Source: Candidatus Nanopelagicus abundans (GTDB lineage Bacteria; Actinomycetota; Actinomycetes; Nanopelagicales; Nanopelagicaceae). From it: DNA of 64,000 nucleotides. Made by a program: the position numbers and the translations under genes. How positions within the stretch are numbered: the first letter of the stretch is position 1; each line of letters opens with the position of its first letter. Below, piece after piece: positions 22,681 through 31,540 of the stretch. The notes under the pieces are model-generated. The model was not told the origin of the DNA and did not search any database. It saw nothing but the letters and a program-made list of their open reading frames with translations. The DNA is taken from positions 372,001 through 436,000 of the forward strand of contig NZ_CP016779.1 in assembly GCF_002288305.1 (NCBI RefSeq), read 5' to 3'.

Positions 22681-23436
22681 TTATGACTGCTGATTCATCG
22701 ACCAAAGAGTCCAGATAAAAGTTCTAACTGTCTTTGGTTGTTTTAGGATATAAAGAATTTGTTGGGCAACATCTTCAGGTCTCAGATAGGTGGCAAGTTT
22801 TTCCATTCCAGGAGTACGTCCTGTTCCCATTGCAAACTCTGTATCAACTCCGGCCGGGCAAACTAATGCAACTCTTATGCCCTTCTCGCGCAGCTCTCGA
22901 TCAAGGGCAGCTGCAATTCCAACTTGGGCATGTTTTGTTCCTGAGTAAATCGCTTGATTTGCAGCTGCTTGAAAGCCGGCAACGGATGCGGTAATAACTA
23001 TGTCACCAGTTGCAGCCTTAATCATTGCAGGCAGGGCTGCTCTAATAATATGAATTGTTGCATCTATATTTGTTCGAAGCATCAAAGTAATTTGTTCATC
23101 ACTGTAATCAAGAATTGAGCCATACATTCCAATGCCAGCATTGGGGATTACGGCGTCAATTTTGCCAAATTTCTTAAGAGCAGTTGCTGCTATCTCGCGT
23201 GCTACATCTGCCTCTGCGCAATCACCGGCTAGGTAGGTGGCGTTTTCATCACCTAACTCTTTTACTAACTCAGCTAGTTTTTCTTTAGTTCTTGCATTTA
23301 AAACTACCTTACAACCTGCAGCAACTGCTGCATAAGCCGTTTGCCTACCAATACCTGAGGTGGCGCCAGTGATAATTAAAACCTCACCAGTTAGATCTCG
23401 TAATTTATATTCACCGGATTTATCTGCGCTGCTCAT
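22681..23436 (-). CDS. Short-chain dehydrogenase/reductase (SDR)
   Basis: A 251-residue SDR with an N-terminal extension of about 15 residues before the first strand. The NAD(P) motif is GATSGIGRQTAY and a basic residue in LNARTKEK suggests NADP. The NAGIGMYG segment, the Ser in ITASVAG and YSGTKHA (Tyr/Lys) form the active site. First gene of the minus-strand operon, next gene starting at its stop. The start is supported by TATATT (complement of 23443-23448) six bases upstream. Confidence 0.88.
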   Translation of the reverse strand: MSSADKSGEYKLRDLTGEVLIITGATSGIGRQTAYAAVAAGCKVVLNARTKEKLAELVKELGDENATYLAGDCAEADVAREIAATALKKFGKIDAVIPNAGIGMYGSILDYSDEQITLMLRTNIDATIHIIRAALPAMIKAATGDIVITASVAGFQAAANQAIYSGTKHAQVGIAAALDRELREKGIRVALVCPAGVDTEFAMGTGRTPGMEKLATYLRPEDVAQQILYILKQPKTVRTFIWTLWSMNQQS

Positions 23437-23442
23437 GCTTAA

Positions 23443-23507
23443 AATATACAGGCAATCGGTGAAAGCCTTAAATCACACTTCCAATTATTAAACGTGAAAG
23501 ATAGGGT
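23443..23507. promoter_or_regulatory. Divergent leaderless promoters
   Basis: Minus strand: TATATT (complement of 23443-23448), six bases before the SDR ATG at 23436. Plus strand: TAGGGT (23502-23507), six bases before the ATG at 23514. Both lack a ribosome site. Confidence 0.6.
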
Positions 23508-23513
23508 ATTGGT

Positions 23514-24575
23514 ATGAAACTTTTTGGCGTAAGCGGTGATCGAGAAAAATTTAGAAAATTAACCTCTCATCCACAACAAGTACTTGGATGTGAGTTATTT
23601 GAAGCATTAGATGGTGATATGCGCGGTCAGCGCATGCTTCGAATTAGAAATGGTGAGATTGAAATTGAAGTATTAGTTGATCGCGGTTTTGATATCGGTA
23701 GAGTTTTATATCAAGGTATTCCAACGCAATGGGTTTCACCAGCTGGCTTTCGCCACGCTCACACCTTTACACCCTCTGCAATTGAGCCAGATGGTTGGGG
23801 ATGGCTGCGCACATGGCAAGGTGGATTTTTATCAACTATTGGAATTGATCATGTTGGTGGTCCTAAGAGCACACCGAATCGTCACTTACATCCTGGAATA
23901 ACTGCAGAACGTAGATTTACTGGCGGCTTTATCTCACTCTCACCAACCACACTTGAAAAGGTTGATGTTAATTGGAATAAGGGAACTATTGAGGTGGTGG
24001 CAAAGGTTAGACAAGCTGCCGCTTTTGCTGAGCATTTAGTTCTTACGCGCAAGATCAGTATGAACTTTGGAGAATCAACATTTAAATTATCTGATTCAAT
24101 TCAAAATGATGGCTATATCGAGGAGCCAGTGCAATTGCTGTATCACATCAATTTAGGTTGGCCATTTCTAGCACCTGGGACAACACTTAAAACTTCATGT
24201 AATGAGATGTTAGGTTGCATTGATTCAGCAAAGGGTGCTGATCCATCTGTTATGCCGGAGCCAACACCAAAAGATATTGAACAAGTTTGGGACTTTAACG
24301 CTCCTACTGGTTTGCAATGGGCACAGATGCGAAATGAAAATGCAGCCGGACGTGGCCCACTTAGTATGAAAATTGAATGGGATGGAAAACAACTTCCACA
24401 CTTTATGCAGTGGCGAAATGCTTGTGAGGCGCTTTATGTGCAGGGCCTTGAGCCATCAACTACTGGTCTTAAAGGACGAGAGGCAGATGACTCACATGCT
24501 GGTCCTTCGCCAATGCTTGAGCCGGGTGATAGCCGTGACTTTGATTTAAACTTTATCTTTGAAAGCGGAAAGTAA
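23514..24575 (+). CDS. DUF4432 family aldose-1-epimerase-like protein
   Basis: A 353-residue protein of the DUF4432 family, related in fold to galactose mutarotases. Typical stretches are VLVDRGFDIGRVLYQG near residue 53, the aromatic block GWGWLRTWQGGF near 103, LLYHINLGWPFL near 207 and the C-terminal MQWRNACEALYVQGLEPS. The conserved His and Glu residues fit a sugar-ring opening or epimerase site. It begins the carbohydrate locus and the next gene starts directly after its stop. Probable role: supply the right anomer or epimer of the imported sugar. The exact reaction is not known to me. Confidence 0.8.
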   Translation: MKLFGVSGDREKFRKLTSHPQQVLGCELFEALDGDMRGQRMLRIRNGEIEIEVLVDRGFDIGRVLYQGIPTQWVSPAGFRHAHTFTPSAIEPDGWGWLRTWQGGFLSTIGIDHVGGPKSTPNRHLHPGITAERRFTGGFISLSPTTLEKVDVNWNKGTIEVVAKVRQAAAFAEHLVLTRKISMNFGESTFKLSDSIQNDGYIEEPVQLLYHINLGWPFLAPGTTLKTSCNEMLGCIDSAKGADPSVMPEPTPKDIEQVWDFNAPTGLQWAQMRNENAAGRGPLSMKIEWDGKQLPHFMQWRNACEALYVQGLEPSTTGLKGREADDSHAGPSPMLEPGDSRDFDLNFIFESGK

Positions 24576-25079
24576 TTGGCAAAAGCTTATTTTGTAGCTG
24601 GCTTAGCAGGCTCTGGTAAGAGCTATTACTCCAGAAAGATTGCTAAGGAGTTAGAACTTAAGATAATTGATTTTGATGATAATTTTAATGAGTTTATAAA
24701 GGCTCATAAAGATGAGTATGAAGCGCTAGGTAGTGAGAAGTTTTTAGCAAATTATGCCAGTACCCGCTACACAGATTTAATTAATCGCGCAGTACTTGAA
24801 TTAGCTAAAGATATCTCAGTAGTAATTGCTGCGCCTTTTTCAAAGCAGTTGCAAGATCAAACACTTTGGGATGAATTAACTTTGCCAATTAAAAAATTTG
24901 ATTCAAATCCAACTCTTTACTGGGTAGTAATATCAGATGAGCTAAGAAAAAAACGTTTGATAACTCGAGGTGAAATGAGGGATGCTGAGAAGATAAAGAA
25001 AATTGATGAGTACATCAAGTTCTCACCTGCTAAAACGCCGGTAGTTGACCACGTTTTAGTCCAGGGGGATCAAAAGTAA
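24576..25079 (+). CDS. P-loop kinase-like NTPase, small
   Basis: A 167-residue protein with Walker A GLAGSGKSYYSRK at residue 9 and a shikimate/gluconate-kinase-like build: the IIDFDDNF motif near 33 could bind the acceptor, and the lid-type ELRKKRLITRGEMRD lies near 125. TTG start directly after the preceding stop. It may phosphorylate a small molecule or be a regulatory ATPase. Its place between a mutarotase-like protein and a sugar transporter points to a sugar or sugar acid as substrate, but that remains inference. Confidence 0.65.
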   Translation: MAKAYFVAGLAGSGKSYYSRKIAKELELKIIDFDDNFNEFIKAHKDEYEALGSEKFLANYASTRYTDLINRAVLELAKDISVVIAAPFSKQLQDQTLWDELTLPIKKFDSNPTLYWVVISDELRKKRLITRGEMRDAEKIKKIDEYIKFSPAKTPVVDHVLVQGDQK

Positions 25080-25127
25080 CGTTTGGATAAAGATTGCAGT
25101 TTTTAGCCTAAAAATATTGACCGAATT

Positions 25128-25186
25128 AGGCAGTTACTGTTGAATTTGATCGCCCGATAAGCCAAACCCACTACTTACAACTGCCT
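25128..25186. promoter_or_regulatory. 8-bp inverted repeat in front of the ABC operon
   Basis: AGGCAGTT (25128-25135) and AACTGCCT (25179-25186) form a perfect inverted pair, 43 bases apart, in the 128-base gap before the ATPase gene. The spacing between centres is about five helical turns, which would suit a repressor binding both half-sites with DNA looping, or two regulator sites. GAATAT six bases before the ATG at 25208 may be the -10 box. Confidence 0.45.
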
Positions 25187-25207
25187 CAAAGATAGGAATA
25201 TAAATCT

Positions 25208-25966
25208 ATGAGTTATGTGCTTGAGGCGAAAAAAATTATTCGCCACTATGGCCAAGTTGAAGCACTTCGCGGTTGTGATTTTAATGTTAAAGCTGGTGAG
25301 GTAACTGCGTTAATTGGTGACAACGGAGCCGGTAAAAGCACACTGGTTCGAATTCTCTCTGGTACTGAACAACCAGATATGGGCGAAATTATTATTGATG
25401 GCAAGGTGGCAACTTTTAATACACCAGCCGATGCGCGTGAGGCTGGTATTGAAACTGTTTTCCAAGATTTAGCGCTGTGTCCACATTTAAATGCTGTACA
25501 AAATATGTACTTAGGTAGAGAGATCTCTCGTGGCGGATTGCTCGGAAAATTAGGTTTCTTAAATAACAAACAGATGAGTACTGGTAGTGAAGAAGCATTC
25601 CGTGATCTTGGCGCAACTGTTCGATCACTTAAAGCAAGTGTTGGATCTATGTCAGGTGGTCAGAGACAAAGTATTGCTGTTGCTAGATCTGCTGCCTGGG
25701 CAAGTAAAGTTTTATTCTTTGATGAGCCAACTGCAGCGCTGGGTGTTGTGCAGAAGAAAAATGTTTTAAATCTTGTCAGGCGTGTTAGAGATAAAGGTAT
25801 TGGCATCGTATTTATTAGCCACTCAATGCCAGAGGTTTTAGAGATCGCAGATCGTATTCAGGTTATGCGCCACGGCAAGGTAATTGCAGATTACAAATCA
25901 TCTGCCACAAATCTTGAAGAGCTAGTTGGAGCTATGACTGGCCGATTAGATGAGGTGAATAAATAA
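25208..25966 (+). CDS. Sugar ABC transporter ATP-binding protein, FrcA type (single domain)
   Basis: A 252-residue ABC ATPase with Walker A GDNGAGKSTL near residue 37, signature MSGGQRQSIAVARS near 147, Walker B VLFFDEPTAAL near 166 and the switch His in FISHSM near 203. It has only one ATPase domain, like FrcA of the fructose transporter, whereas RbsA, XylG and AraG have two. It shares one base with the permease gene (TAATG). It energises a CUT2-type importer for a monosaccharide or polyol. Confidence 0.92.
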   Translation: MSYVLEAKKIIRHYGQVEALRGCDFNVKAGEVTALIGDNGAGKSTLVRILSGTEQPDMGEIIIDGKVATFNTPADAREAGIETVFQDLALCPHLNAVQNMYLGREISRGGLLGKLGFLNNKQMSTGSEEAFRDLGATVRSLKASVGSMSGGQRQSIAVARSAAWASKVLFFDEPTAALGVVQKKNVLNLVRRVRDKGIGIVFISHSMPEVLEIADRIQVMRHGKVIADYKSSATNLEELVGAMTGRLDEVNK

Positions 25967-27051
25967 TGTCTATTAATGGCAATCCAGTCAGTGATTTTGG
26001 TTTATTAGATGAGCGCCAAAGTTTTTGGCAAAAACTGCGCAAAACTCAAACCGCTCAGATCATGTTGGTTTTGGTAGTAATTACTGCCATATTTAGTCTT
26101 TTAGCACCAGATACATTTTTTACCCTCTTTAACCTTAGAAACATCTTTATCAACATTGCTATGTTTGCCATCTTAGGTATTGGTATGACATTTGTGATTA
26201 TTACCGCTGGTATTGATCTATCTATCGGAAGCATGTTGGTTTTTAGTAGCGTAATTGGTTGTAAGGCAATAGTTGCATCCGGTGGTCAAGGCTGGGGATC
26301 AACCATTGCTGGTTTATTTGCTTGCCTTATCTTAGCTACCCTTTTAGGCGCGATAAATGGTTGGTTAGTTGCAGTTGCTAATGTGCCAGCATTTATTGTG
26401 ACTCTAGGTTCATTTAGTACCGTCTTAGGTCTTGCACAGATAACTACCGGCGGAATTGATCTAAGTGATGCAACTGATGTAATGGTAGATAAAATTGGTT
26501 TTGGTAATGTGATTGGCCAGATTCCTGCCCTTGGTGTGATCGCATTAGTTTGCGTAATTTTCGGTGGTATTTTGTTACACAAAACTAAGTTTGGTCTTAC
26601 AACCTATGCAATTGGTTCAAATATTGAAGGTTGCCGCAGAGTTGGTATCAACGTTAATCGCCACCTAGTTTTGGTTTATGCATTAATGGGTTTTTGTGCT
26701 GGAATAGCAGGATTCTTAAGTCTTGCACTTTATCAACAGACCACAATTGCTGGTCAATCTAATACAGCCCTTACGGTTATCGCAGGTGTGGTAATCGGTG
26801 GAACTAGCCTATTTGGTGGGTATGGTTCCATGTTCGGTACGATGATCGGCTTACTAATACCAATAGTTCTCCAGACTGGCTTCATCATCATCGGCGTTGT
26901 GCCTTTTTGGCAAAATGTTGTGGTTGGAGTCTTTTTGGTTGCAGCTGTATACGTCGACAATGCTCGACGCGCAGCTGCTGAAGGAGGCGGAAGAAGCCTA
27001 AAAAAACGCTCTTCAAAAGAGAGCAACTTAAACGCGAAGGGGAATAAATGA
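25966..27051 (+). CDS. Sugar ABC transporter permease, RbsC/FrcC type
   Basis: A 361-residue permease with eight to ten membrane helices. CUT2 features are FVIITAGIDLSIGSMLVFSS near residue 75 and, near 265, VIAGVVIGGTSLFGGYGSMF. The C-terminus ends in a basic tail (RRAAAEGGGRSLKKRSSKE). It overlaps the ATPase gene by one base and the binding-protein gene by four (ATGA), so the three proteins are coupled. Confidence 0.93.
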   Translation: MSINGNPVSDFGLLDERQSFWQKLRKTQTAQIMLVLVVITAIFSLLAPDTFFTLFNLRNIFINIAMFAILGIGMTFVIITAGIDLSIGSMLVFSSVIGCKAIVASGGQGWGSTIAGLFACLILATLLGAINGWLVAVANVPAFIVTLGSFSTVLGLAQITTGGIDLSDATDVMVDKIGFGNVIGQIPALGVIALVCVIFGGILLHKTKFGLTTYAIGSNIEGCRRVGINVNRHLVLVYALMGFCAGIAGFLSLALYQQTTIAGQSNTALTVIAGVVIGGTSLFGGYGSMFGTMIGLLIPIVLQTGFIIIGVVPFWQNVVVGVFLVAAVYVDNARRAAAEGGGRSLKKRSSKESNLNAKGNK

Positions 27052-28022
27052 AGAAGAATCGCAAGTTAGCTGCGGTTGCTGCAGTATCTGCTGTTGCTCT
27101 TGTTTTCACAGGAGTAGGAGCATCATCTGCTAACGCAGCAGGAGAAAAAATCACGTTCATTCAGGGTGTAGCAGGCGATGCTTTCTACATCACTATGGGT
27201 TGCGGTATTGCTGAGGCAGCTGCTAAAGCTGGCGCAGTAGTTACAACTCAAGGTGGCGCAAAGTGGGATGCAACAGTTCAAAAGCCAGTGCTAGATAGCG
27301 TAATTGCATCAAAGCCACAGGCAATCCTGATTGCAGCTAATGATAAAACAGTTATGCAAAAGCCAATTGAGGCAGCAATTGCAGCCGGAATTAAGGTTGT
27401 TCTAGTTGATACCACAATTGATGATCCATCAACTGCAGTTTCTGAGATTGCATCAGATAACTACGGCGGCGGAAAAGCAGCATTTGATGCTGTTAAGCAA
27501 TTACAACCAAAGGGTGGAAAAGTTCTTGTAGTAAGCACATCTCCTGGAGTTAGCTCTGTAGATGCTCGCGTACTTGGCTTTGCTGATAAGGCAAACGCTG
27601 ACAAGAAGTTCAACTACCTTGGCGTGCAGTACTCAAACAATGAGCCTGCAGTTGCACAACGTATTGTTACTGCAGCACTAGCTAAGAACAGAGATATCGT
27701 TGCAGTATTTGCAACTAACCTATTCTCAGCACAAGGTGTAGCAGCTGGAATCAAGCAAGCTGGTAGAGCTGGCAAGGTTACAGTTGTTGGATTCGATGCA
27801 GGTTCTGATCAGGTTAAGGCGCTTAAGGCTGGAACAGTTCAAGCTCTTATCGCACAACAACCAGGAACAATCGGATCAAAGGGTATTGAAGCAGCTGTAG
27901 CAGCGATCGCAGGAAAAGCTCCTGAGGCAAAGAAGATTGCTACTGGCTTCACAATCTTGACAAAGAAGAATATCGATACTGCTGCTGGTAAGAAGGCACA
28001 GTACCGCGATTCATGCAGCTAA
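27048..28022 (+). CDS. Sugar ABC transporter substrate-binding protein, RbsB/FrcB type
   Basis: A 324-residue protein with a classical signal peptide (KKNRKL, then hydrophobic residues 7-24, cleavage near SANAAG). It has the periplasmic-binding type I fold: ITFIQGVAGDAFYITMGCG at the start of the mature part, AILIAANDKTVMQKPIEAA near 90, and AVFATNLFSAQGVAAGIKQAG near 225. It contains only a few cysteines, one of them near the C-terminus. A strong terminator follows. In other CUT2 systems the last gene is transcribed most stably; here it is also last. Confidence 0.92.
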   Translation: MKKNRKLAAVAAVSAVALVFTGVGASSANAAGEKITFIQGVAGDAFYITMGCGIAEAAAKAGAVVTTQGGAKWDATVQKPVLDSVIASKPQAILIAANDKTVMQKPIEAAIAAGIKVVLVDTTIDDPSTAVSEIASDNYGGGKAAFDAVKQLQPKGGKVLVVSTSPGVSSVDARVLGFADKANADKKFNYLGVQYSNNEPAVAQRIVTAALAKNRDIVAVFATNLFSAQGVAAGIKQAGRAGKVTVVGFDAGSDQVKALKAGTVQALIAQQPGTIGSKGIEAAVAAIAGKAPEAKKIATGFTILTKKNIDTAAGKKAQYRDSCS

Positions 28023-28044
28023 GATTTAATTAACTGCAGAAATT

Positions 28045-28084
28045 AAAGACCTCACCGGTTCTTATGAACTGGTGAGGTCTTTTT
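28045..28084 (+). terminator. Intrinsic terminator after the ABC operon
   Basis: A stem of 17 bp (AAAGACCTCACCGGTTC with GAACTGGTGAGGTCTTT, one G-T pair) with the loop TTAT, followed by TTTT. Confidence 0.9.
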
Positions 28085-28125
28085 AATTGATTTAATTTTA
28101 TTTTACTCGCATTTATTTCATAATA

Positions 28126-28154
28126 TTGACGCAGATGATTTTGATAAATAGAAT
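28126..28154 (+). promoter_or_regulatory. Sigma-A type promoter for the kinase-kinase-aldolase operon
   Basis: TTGACG (28126-28131), 17 bases, TAGAAT (28149-28154). This is close to the consensus of the main sigma factor and lies 27 bases before the PfkB start. It separates the enzymes from the transporter transcript. Confidence 0.7.
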
Positions 28155-28181
28155 TAGTGCAATGAGAGCGATGACATATTC

Positions 28182-29141
28182 ATGTTAATCCTCACTCCTA
28201 ATCCTTGTCTTGATGTAACTCTTTGGGTAAATAGGCTCTCACTAGGCTCAGTTCACCGGGCTAGCAAAAATGAAACAACAGCAGGTGGTAAAGGAATTAA
28301 CGTTGCAAGAGCTAGCGCCTCACTAGGTGCCCCCGGACATTTAATTTTGATGCTGCCAACTGTTCAGGCAGATCTATATAAGCAGCGATTAGAAGCTGAG
28401 AAGATAAAGGTTTCCTATCTAGATATCCCAGGTGAGGTTAGAAAAGCAATAATTATTAATCAAAATGAGGGCACAGAGATCACCGTTGTAAATGGGGCCG
28501 GCCCTGATATCACCGCAAGTGATTGGGATAAATACTGTGACCTAGTTATTAAAAACACCAGTAAAGATGAGCTAGTACTTTTGATGGGAAGTATGCCAAG
28601 TGCATCACCACAGGATGCAATTGAAAAGCTTTCAAAGAAAATACATGCAGTGGGGGCACAATTATTAGTTGACACCGCACCAGCCTCACTTAAATCTAGG
28701 AAATCTGAAATATTAGATTTTATTACCCCAAATCTTGAAGAGGCAGAGGCTTTAATCTCAGGAGATGATGGTTCTTTATTTGTAGTAAATAATGAAAATA
28801 TCGAAGAACGTGCGATGATTGTTGCCCAGAAATTACAAGGCGTAGTTGCAAAGCAGGTATTTATAACAGTTGGTGAGCATGGCTGCGCCTTTAATAATGG
28901 AAGTGAAAAGTGGTTCTTGCCAGCCTTTAAGCTAAATCCCAATCTTTATAAGAGCGCAGTTGGGGCTGGTGATTCATTTGTTGCAGGCCTTGCTAATTAT
29001 CTTAATCAAAACAGCGCAAATATAGATTGGAAAGAGTGCGCAAAATTTGCCATGGCAACCGCTGCTGCCTCATGTGAGAGCTATCTTGCAGGTGGGGTTG
29101 ATAAAGAGCGGGCGCTTTTAATATTGGCAGGTAAATCATGA
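28182..29141 (+). CDS. PfkB-family kinase, 1-phosphofructokinase/tagatose-6-phosphate kinase-like
   Basis: A 319-residue kinase of the FruK/LacC branch of PfkB. It begins LILTPNPCLDVTLWV, as FruK and LacC do (TLNPAxD). The substrate motif GGKGINVARASASLG lies near residue 35 and the catalytic motif VGAGDSFVAGLANYL near 260, with the base Asp. This branch phosphorylates a sugar already carrying one phosphate: fructose 1-phosphate or tagatose 6-phosphate to the 1,6-bisphosphate. With a LacD-like aldolase downstream it fits a ketose-bisphosphate route. It shares four bases (ATGA) with the FGGY kinase. Confidence 0.85.
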   Translation: MLILTPNPCLDVTLWVNRLSLGSVHRASKNETTAGGKGINVARASASLGAPGHLILMLPTVQADLYKQRLEAEKIKVSYLDIPGEVRKAIIINQNEGTEITVVNGAGPDITASDWDKYCDLVIKNTSKDELVLLMGSMPSASPQDAIEKLSKKIHAVGAQLLVDTAPASLKSRKSEILDFITPNLEEAEALISGDDGSLFVVNNENIEERAMIVAQKLQGVVAKQVFITVGEHGCAFNNGSEKWFLPAFKLNPNLYKSAVGAGDSFVAGLANYLNQNSANIDWKECAKFAMATAAASCESYLAGGVDKERALLILAGKS

Positions 29142-30535
29142 GCCAGAGCGTCTATTTTGGCGTAGATCTTGGTACTACTAATACCAAGGTGATCGCAGTA
29201 AAAGAAAGTGGTGAGTTCATTGCATCCGCCAGGCGTGCAACAGATTGGATTGTGTTGCCAAATGGGCGAATCGAGGCAGATGCAGATCTACTCTATAAAA
29301 AAGTTGTTGATTGTATTAATGAATTAGTTACAAGCACCGCTGGGATTCTTGGCCAGTTTAAAGTTGCTGGTATTGGTATTACTGGCATGGCTGAGAGTGG
29401 AGTAATACTAGATAAAGATAATAAAATTTTAAGTCAACCAGTTGCTTGGTTTGATAGTAGGGGTGAGGCTGAGATGAATAGCCTTGGGGAGGAGTTTAGA
29501 AAAGAGTATCAGGCAAAGACTGGCTTGGTATTTAAACCAGAGTCATCTCTTTCATCACTTCTTTCAATGAAGAGTGAAGGCTTTGATTTTAAGCAAAAAG
29601 GAATCGTCTGGCTTAATTTATTAGAGTATGTGGCATTCCTCTTTACTGGGACTAAAGCTACTGAGCCATCCCTTGCCTCCCGCACCGCACTCCTTGACCA
29701 ATCTAATTTAAAGTTTTGGCAGCGGGCTAAGGATCTTTTATCAGTTGATGAATCATTTATTCCAGAGCAGAGATTTTGTGGACAAAGTTGGGGGCCATTA
29801 AATACTAAATCAGTTCCAGATCAATTACAGGGGGCTCAGGTAACTGTTACTGGCCATGATCATTCAGTTGGGGCAATAGGTTCTGGTGCTACTGGAGTTG
29901 ATCAGATATTTAATTCAGCTGGAACTGCTGATGTGATTTATCGAAGCGTGCCGGGCACATTAAGTGATGAACAAAGATTTGCGCTAACTGAGTTAGGTGT
30001 TTCAGCAGGAAGGCATGCTCTGCAAGATGCCACATCACTAATTGGTGGTTCCCGCGGTGGCCTAGTTTTGCGAAGAGCGCTGGATTTATTAGGAGCAAGA
30101 GATGGGCAGAAGTTACTTGAAATTGATAATGCTTGGAGCCCCGCGCATAAATTTAAAGATGTAATTGATATGTCTCAAGGTAAATCGATATCAAATGATA
30201 TAAAAATCGTTCTAACTGGGGATGCTGGCCCAAATGATCTATGGTCAGCCGCCCTTGATTACATGAGCAGTGAGAATAAAAAAATGCTAAATGGAATTTC
30301 AGCAGTTGTCGGTGAGCATAAAACCGCTCTTGGCTCTGGTGGATGGCTAAAATTGCGAAGTGTTCGCGAAATTAAATCTAGTGTCATAGCAAATCTCACC
30401 TTTTCATCAATTGATGAGCCAGGTGCCTTTGGCGCTGCATTTATTGCTTCTTGGACTGCTCAGGGTGGAGATAGTTCATTGGTAGATCATGTAGGTAAGT
30501 TGGTTGCAAAACTAAATTCGGAATACCGGATATAG
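29138..30535 (+). CDS. FGGY family carbohydrate kinase
   Basis: A 465-residue kinase. The N-terminal motif YFGVDLGTTNTKVIAV and GIGITGMAESGVILD near residue 82 show the FGGY/actin-like fold. Near 230 it has TGHDHSVGAIGSGATG, where the Asp is the likely catalytic base, as in xylulose and rhamnulose kinases. The C-terminal part is diverged and short (465 versus about 490). It would phosphorylate a free ketose or polyol brought in by the ABC transporter; the PfkB kinase would then add the second phosphate. Substrate not readable from the sequence. Confidence 0.82.
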   Translation: MSQSVYFGVDLGTTNTKVIAVKESGEFIASARRATDWIVLPNGRIEADADLLYKKVVDCINELVTSTAGILGQFKVAGIGITGMAESGVILDKDNKILSQPVAWFDSRGEAEMNSLGEEFRKEYQAKTGLVFKPESSLSSLLSMKSEGFDFKQKGIVWLNLLEYVAFLFTGTKATEPSLASRTALLDQSNLKFWQRAKDLLSVDESFIPEQRFCGQSWGPLNTKSVPDQLQGAQVTVTGHDHSVGAIGSGATGVDQIFNSAGTADVIYRSVPGTLSDEQRFALTELGVSAGRHALQDATSLIGGSRGGLVLRRALDLLGARDGQKLLEIDNAWSPAHKFKDVIDMSQGKSISNDIKIVLTGDAGPNDLWSAALDYMSSENKKMLNGISAVVGEHKTALGSGGWLKLRSVREIKSSVIANLTFSSIDEPGAFGAAFIASWTAQGGDSSLVDHVGKLVAKLNSEYRI

Positions 30536-30554
30536 CTAAGAGAAACGGAAGAAT

Positions 30555-31475
30555 ATGACAAAGGTAGTAACAAGAGCACTAAATGGCTTATCAAGTATTT
30601 CCAACAGTGAGGGGATTTTCTCAATTGTTGCAATGGATCAACGCAACACATTAAAGAAAATGTTCACAGCAGTTGGTGTTACCGCAACTGATGAAGACAT
30701 GTTCACAGCTAAAATCGCAGTTGCATCCGCTCTTTCTAAGGCAGCATCTGGCATTTTGCTAGATCCAACTTGGGGAGTACCTGCGGTAAATGAGAATGAT
30801 GTTTTGCCTACTACTTGCGGCTTATTAGTTGCAGCCGAAAACCCAGATCGCGGTAACTTTAATGGCGAGCCACGTCCAACAAAAATGATTGGCCAAGATG
30901 CTGCTTGGGTTAAATCACAAGGTGGTCAGGCGGTTAAGGTGCTGGTAAGTATGCACCCAGGACGGCCAATGAAGGCGGGAGAGCCTGATTTAACTAGTGA
31001 AACAGTTGAATTAGTTAGAGCCATCGTTGCAGATTGCAAAGCCCAAGGCATTCCATCTGTAATTGAAAACCTAATATACGCACTTCCTAATGCAGAGCCA
31101 TTAACTGATGAGCAGAAGGAAAACTTAATTGTTGAATCTGCGATTTTACTTAATGAGACAAAGCCTGATCTACTAAAGCTTGAGTTTCCTATGAGTGAGC
31201 GTGGCTGCAAACGCCTTGCTGATTCATTAACTGTGCCATGGGCAGTACTTTCTGCCGGTGTGGCATTTGATCAATTTAAAAAAGTGATCACCATTTCATG
31301 TGATGCAGGGGGCGCCTCTGGTTTCATCGCAGGCCGATCAATCTGGAAAGAGGCAATCGGAATGAATAAGGCTGATCAAGAGAAGTTCTTAAACTCAACT
31401 GCAATCGCTCGCCTGGAAGAGTTAAATGCAACAGTTGTTGGCAGAGCTGTTCCTTGGCAGAAGGCAATTAAATAA
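30555..31475 (+). CDS. Class I aldolase of the LacD/YihT family (tagatose-1,6-bisphosphate aldolase-like)
   Basis: A 306-residue aldolase. It starts with the family motif FSIVAMDQRNTLKKMF near residue 23. The Schiff-base lysine should be the Lys in LLKLEFPMSERG near 205 (KVEMP in YihT). PWAVLSAGV and GASGFIAGRSIWKEA form the phosphate-binding end. LacD splits tagatose 1,6-bisphosphate into DHAP and glyceraldehyde 3-phosphate and also accepts other ketohexose bisphosphates; YihT splits 6-deoxy-6-sulfofructose 1-phosphate. With a PfkB kinase upstream and no sulfo-sugar genes, the bisphosphate reading is preferred. It ends the operon at a terminator. Confidence 0.85.
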   Translation: MTKVVTRALNGLSSISNSEGIFSIVAMDQRNTLKKMFTAVGVTATDEDMFTAKIAVASALSKAASGILLDPTWGVPAVNENDVLPTTCGLLVAAENPDRGNFNGEPRPTKMIGQDAAWVKSQGGQAVKVLVSMHPGRPMKAGEPDLTSETVELVRAIVADCKAQGIPSVIENLIYALPNAEPLTDEQKENLIVESAILLNETKPDLLKLEFPMSERGCKRLADSLTVPWAVLSAGVAFDQFKKVITISCDAGGASGFIAGRSIWKEAIGMNKADQEKFLNSTAIARLEELNATVVGRAVPWQKAIK

Positions 31476-31489
31476 TAAAATAAAGTAAT

Positions 31490-31527
31490 AAAAAATCCGG
31501 CTGATAAATTAATCAGCCGGATTTTTT
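31490..31527. terminator. Bidirectional intrinsic terminator
   Basis: A 16-bp perfect stem, 31490-31505 with 31512-31527 (core ATCCGGCTGAT), with A-run before and T-run after; it ends both the aldolase operon and lexA. Confidence 0.92.
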
Positions 31528-31540
31528 ATTTAAACTTAAA

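Follow-up and report, generated by a model that had tools for sequence, protein, structure and literature searches.

Which sugar is taken up through the carbohydrate locus at 23514-31475 of the window, and by what route would it be broken down? The window is the whole stretch of DNA analysed here, 64,000 nucleotides from Candidatus Nanopelagicus abundans (Nanopelagicaceae, acI), whose genome is 1.16 Mb on one contig. The ORF listing gave eight co-directional reading frames over this interval, all on the + strand, as originally predicted. The ORFs and profiles also agree with the description of the locus as an FGGY kinase, a LacC/FruK-type PfkB kinase and a LacD-like aldolase together with a Frc-type ABC importer.

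Family calls were made with Pfam and NCBIfam profiles at their curated cut-offs. Gene A (23514..24575) encodes a DUF4432 mutarotase-like protein of 353 aa (PF14486, 215 bits against a cut-off of 32.5), with a weak relative in PDB 3ty1, a 'hypothetical aldose 1-epimerase'. Gene B (24576..25079) abuts A, begins with TTG and encodes a small P-loop kinase of 167 aa (AAA_33, PF13671, 31.8 bits against 27). The importer genes are C (25208..25966), for a single-domain CUT2 ATPase of 252 aa, D (25966..27051), for a permease of 361 aa (BPD_transp_2, 109 bits), and E (27048..28022), for a sugar-binding protein of 324 aa with a signal-peptide-like N-terminus (Peripla_BP_4, 180 bits). They are followed by F (28182..29141; PfkB kinase of the 1-PFK/LacC type, 319 aa), G (29138..30535; FGGY carbohydrate kinase, 465 aa) and H (30555..31475; LacD-like class I ketose-bisphosphate aldolase, 306 aa).

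The spacing of the genes is operon-like. A and B are separated by 0 bp, C overlaps D and D overlaps E, F shares 4 bp with G, and a 19-bp gap lies between G and H. An intrinsic terminator hairpin on the + strand at 28045..28084 (17-bp stem followed by a T run; z of -9.8 against shuffles) marks the boundary between the importer and the catabolic genes. This spacing, with a strong hairpin 3' of the binding-protein gene, suggests three transcription units, A-B, C-D-E and F-G-H, the last ending at a convergent terminator shared with lexA (31487..31530; 19-pair stem with a T tail). A weak promoter-like site 5' of the kinase-aldolase unit (TTGACG-17-TAGAAT, 28126..28154, + strand) is a consensus match only, with no enrichment relative to shuffled sequences. 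A palindromic LacI operator was not found in the intergenic stretches beside the window genes, and neither GC content nor tRNAs gave a hint of recent transfer.

With Pfam and NCBIfam no isomerase or dehydrogenase of known type was found among the eight genes. To this extent the claim that none is present stood, but a short-chain dehydrogenase (SDR) gene lies 77 bp upstream of the cassette and a ManA-like isomerase is encoded elsewhere in the genome. The SDR gene is divergent (22681-23436, - strand) and is kept beside the cassette in genome G024, not in G114. It is an unlikely pathway dehydrogenase: the related module of another genus (L039) does not have it as a neighbour, and it shares only 27% identity with the SDR found close to module L075. 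It is probably unrelated to the cassette.

The best model for F, which carries a GAGD motif, was the 1-PFK 'hexose kinase' TIGR03168 (179.0 bits), under the cut-off of 216.4 that the PfkB protein of the L095 relative passed with 281.8 bits; the top PDB chain for F was 2awd, a tagatose-6-phosphate kinase. G has the FGGY_N domain (PF00370, 108.5 bits), yet missed every FGGY equivalog, the best being XylB (101.5 against 380 bits). H has the DeoC/LacD family domain (PF01791, 73.6 bits) and passed the 'tagatose 1,6-diphosphate aldolase' model NF009498 marginally (185.0 against 184 bits), a subfamily that itself covers several functions and that H barely enters, while it failed the lacD equivalog TIGR01232 by far (81.5 against 432 bits). 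The Lys of the H motif PDLLKLEFP aligns with the presumed Schiff-base Lys of the YihT-type motif DLYK, and this residue is conserved in all aligned aldolases. On its family domain and the conserved Lys, H is classed as a class I DeoC/LacD aldolase.

The single ABC_tran domain in the 252-aa ATPase, together with a BPD_transp_2 permease and a Peripla_BP_4 binding protein, identifies the importer as Frc-type CUT2, as had been read from the sequence. C is 54-84% identical to the ATPases of the other modules described below. The closest PDB chain to E in a sequence search was 5dkv from Agrobacterium vitis (E value 1.5e-49), whose ligand we take to be alpha-D-tagatopyranose. A structure model of E (pLDDT 89, from a 12-sequence alignment) likewise had 5dkv as its top solved match (Z 37.5, 40% identity). 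E is nearer in sequence to 5dkv than to 4wut, which we take to be a fructose-bound binding protein. At 11 presumed sugar-contact positions (44, 46, 47, 99, 121, 122, 174, 224, 225, 250 and 270), picked from knowledge of RbsB and not from coordinates, E equals 5dkv in 11 of 11 and 4wut in 7 of 11. A literature search found no paper describing 5dkv, and 40% identity to it does not settle the specificity of E.

When the same set was looked for in other genomes, as the original prediction had proposed, it was found in several. A close aldolase (82% identity or more) is encoded in 5 of the 201 family genomes, in three genera. A 96% identical aldolase is encoded in a relative that is a Nanopelagicaceae (acI) metagenome bin. 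The complete order A B C D E F LacI G H occurs in another genus (L039), where the DUF4432 protein is a 79% orthologue of A; L038, at a contig end, has F LacI G H. In another family (L073) the order is B F LacI G H C D E, with an aldolase 60% and a binding protein 61% identical to those of the window. Two loci belong to another class-level lineage of the phylum: L122 reads C D E H F LacI G, and L123 reads DUF4432 H' B C D E H F LacI G, H' being a second aldolase. Every component is present in that lineage. Recurrence across genera and in a second class marks the eight genes as a real module and not chance neighbours. PfkB is present in most modules that keep ABC, FGGY and aldolase genes, from acI to the other class-level lineage; it was not found, by profile or annotation, near L075, L078 or the annotated Rhizobiales loci. 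The LacD-like aldolase was not found in L095 or L096, and L096 has the orthologous ABC, FGGY and PfkB genes with a class II FBA/GatY-type aldolase.

In the window and in L004, F and G overlap directly at the point where LacI sits in the relatives, and therefore the LacI-type regulator of the module appears to have been lost in the genus of the window. A search of the source genome gave no match to the LacI gene of the module.

The module aldolases form their own clade of nine members (support 98/97), all of them module members. An FGGY gene adjoins the aldolase gene in every readable neighbourhood of this clade, and ABC genes do so too wherever the contig extends far enough. YihT and the aldolases of acI sulfoquinovose-type loci fall in a separate clade (100/100), a third clade (100/99) comprises Rhizobiales loci with L075 and L078, and Lactococcus LacD lies elsewhere on a long branch. 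H, first labelled 'LacD/YihT-like', lies outside the YihT clade. The FGGY kinases of LacD-linked loci mostly form one cluster (85/98), separate from the kinases of other loci; the exceptions, L097 and L071, have long branches and their placement is unsure. The source genome carries a second FGGY locus at 255-263 kb (L082), where the kinase is accompanied by a class I aldolase of the DhnA type, a ribokinase-like PfkB protein and a Gfo/Idh/MocA-like protein, and a related set occurs in L083 and adjoining the module in L123.

The recurrence of the set, the position of the aldolase apart from YihT and the proximity of the binding protein to 5dkv lend genomic support to the predicted series of ketohexose import, FGGY kinase, PfkB kinase and LacD-like cleavage. 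We consider the locus to be, with moderate confidence, a cassette for the use of a free ketohexose, most likely D-tagatose. E and the C/D transporter would take up the unphosphorylated ketohexose. FGGY enzymes are natural first kinases for free sugars, and G would phosphorylate one terminal hydroxyl. F, as a 1-PFK/LacC-type kinase, would add the second phosphate to give a ketohexose 1,6-bisphosphate, which for tagatose would be tagatose 1,6-bisphosphate. H would then split the bisphosphate into dihydroxyacetone phosphate and glyceraldehyde 3-phosphate, to be used in lower glycolysis. Such an intermediate fits because F is nearest to 1-phosphofructokinase/LacC and because L096 carries a class II FBA/GatY-type aldolase, with no LacD-like one found. 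A may serve as an accessory mutarotase-like protein and B as an additional small-molecule kinase; with B, the kinases exceed the need of the scheme by one. We infer the enzyme activities, the order of phosphorylation and the identity of the sugar from gene families and context.

The same pathway logic may apply to another ketohexose (D-fructose, D-psicose or L-sorbose), or to an aldose or polyol that the cell first converts elsewhere, perhaps with a ManA-like protein; we regard this as possible but rather unlikely. Frc-type ABC importers are known for fructose, and the window importer is like FrcBCA of rhizobia in being a CUT2 system with a single-domain ATPase, a likeness of type. The closest solved binding protein to E is A. 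vitis 5dkv and not the presumably fructose-bound 4wut, and both sequence and the assumed contact positions place E closer to the former. A ManA-like gene lies inside L122 and L123 and beside L073, the protein beside L073 being 74% identical to the ManA-like isomerase of the source genome (497687-498697, L145), but there is none within the acI modules. SDR genes occur near the ABC genes of L075, L095 and L096. Where ManA-like isomerases or SDRs lie near a module, the host may be using an aldose or polyol instead. A polyol is less likely, because no dehydrogenase belongs to the set in the window lineage.

The proposed tagatose route resembles the LacABCD system of Lactococcus and Streptococcus, in which a PfkB-family ketohexose 6-phosphate kinase precedes a LacD-family class I aldolase that yields triose phosphates. 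The lac system, however, delivers tagatose 6-phosphate through a lactose PTS and LacAB, whereas the window has an ABC importer and an FGGY kinase; neither the LacAB galactose-6-phosphate isomerase nor a lactose PTS was found within the eight-gene set or directly next to it, and H is only 26% identical to Lactococcus LacD, with a separate position in the tree. In evolved E. coli, tagatose is used via a PTS and fru/aga genes with involvement of 1-phosphofructokinase (PMC10101011). There, as proposed here, tagatose is taken up, phosphorylated and cleaved, but import is by a PTS and cleavage by a class II aldolase, where the window has an ABC importer, an FGGY kinase and a class I aldolase (PMC10101011). 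The parts of the module are familiar; their combination, conserved across the phylum, differs from known tagatose pathways.

It is improbable that the locus serves two parallel routes behind a shared importer, with the FGGY kinase and another enzyme acting on one sugar and PfkB or the P-loop kinase with the aldolase acting on another. Three kinases in one set would suit such an arrangement, as would the modules in which PfkB (L075, L078) or the LacD-like aldolase (L095, L096) was not found. The 4-bp overlap of F with G and the 19-bp gap before H speak against it, as does the persistence of ABC, FGGY and aldolase genes together from acI to the other class-level lineage.

A sulfosugar or related substrate, cleaved by a YihT-like aldolase in a variant of sulfoglycolysis, is very improbable. 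By sequence, the solved proteins closest to H include YihT-type sulfofructosephosphate aldolases, and about 28 other family genomes have a YihT-clade aldolase, in sulfoquinovose-type loci where the context was examined, but H lies outside that clade, genes for sulfoquinovose isomerase, sulfolactate and sulfolactaldehyde steps are absent from the window set, and the acI sulfoquinovose-type loci have a different importer and lack FGGY. Like the window, the YihOSVT pathway has a PfkB kinase and a class I aldolase, here YihT, the sulfofructose-1-phosphate aldolase, which belongs to the superfamily of H; it differs in that the window aldolase has its own clade, with no SQ isomerase or sulfonate genes and an extra FGGY kinase. 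On the aldolase tree and the gene context, a YihT/sulfoglycolysis identity for the locus was rejected.

The YihT-like aldolases are themselves encoded in approximately 28 of the 201 family genomes (L040 and L041-L048 among the loci). The loci examined contain genes for an SftI-like sulfoquinovose isomerase, a PfkB kinase, an L-sulfolactate dehydrogenase-like protein and a YeiH-type exporter, together with galactarate-dehydratase-like genes that we presume to be SuyAB-like. These acI loci probably specify a sulfoquinovose-to-sulfite pathway.

It had also been suggested that DUF4432 might carry out the isomerisation. DUF4432 is encoded in the acI modules and weakly matched in L123, and it is absent from L073 and L075, both of which have readable flanks and contain ABC, FGGY and aldolase genes. 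The idea of a required isomerase was therefore abandoned. Because otherwise intact modules lack DUF4432, A is best described as a predicted accessory mutarotase-like protein. A literature search found nothing on its function.

The small P-loop kinase had been said simply to start the locus. It is indeed present and abuts A, but it is a recurrent part of the module and not an incidental neighbour, with homologues in the window, L008, L039, L073, L075, L078 and L123. In L075 and L078, where PfkB was not found, it occurs with FGGY and aldolase genes, whereas the window has both B and PfkB. In Rhizobiales (L069 and L148-L151, plasmids) an AAA_33 P-loop domain is fused to a ROK kinase annotated just as 'ROK family protein', and the fusion adjoins a LacD-superfamily aldolase in the annotated loci; the arrangement is found also in A. 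salinitolerans and Aureimonas. In Rhizobium tumorigenes, genes for a 'tagatose-bisphosphate aldolase' and such a ROK-AAA_33 fusion lie near the gene for a binding protein that shares 85% identity with 5dkv. The Rhizobiales locus (L069, L149, L151), which combines a 5dkv-type binding protein and ABC genes with a sugar-binding regulator, is thus like the window in its related importer, LacD-superfamily aldolase and AAA_33 kinase domain, and unlike it in having ROK instead of FGGY, no PfkB found and an aldolase of a different clade.

An HMM of B built without rhizobial sequences matched the ROK-fused domain weakly (E values of 1e-6 to 1e-3 in 1105 ORFs) and matched an Amycolatopsis protein of unrelated setting more strongly, and the kinship of B and the ROK-fused domain is therefore placed at superfamily level. 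B accompanies the module, and in Rhizobiales a related domain forms part of a ROK fusion protein encoded beside the aldolase where PfkB was not found. This suggests a second sugar-phosphate kinase, which is our best guess, of modest probability. In the scheme above B would be a further small-molecule kinase, perhaps a second one for ketose phosphates. Rather doubtful is the bolder reading that B represents a new family of small AAA_33 ketose-phosphate kinases making the 1,6-bisphosphate for LacD-like aldolases; the Rhizobiales ROK-AAA_33 protein as a two-step kinase beside its aldolase belongs to that reading and is equally doubtful.

The proposed route would be a PTS-free path for ketohexoses that relies on FGGY and PfkB kinases and on LacD-like aldolases forming a clade of their own. 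It would be common to distant Actinomycetota, among them a bacterial group that ranks with the most abundant in fresh water. Testable functions follow for an unassigned FGGY clade, for an aldolase clade labelled just 'tagatose 1,6-diphosphate aldolase', for DUF4432 and for the small P-loop kinase. The slot that the cassette occupies beside lexA (window 23437-31540; L161-L165) varies among sister genomes. It is a swap site at which a streamlined genome exchanges entire carbon-source cassettes, the present one being among several that can take each other's place. In G019 the slot has no cassette, and in G004 it contains a CoA-ester set (CoA-transferase/crotonase). In G006 it holds an L-rhamnose cassette, in which the RhaI and RhaD-ADH models were passed; ORFs similar to this rhamnose cassette occupy the slot in G013, and part of it is found in G020.
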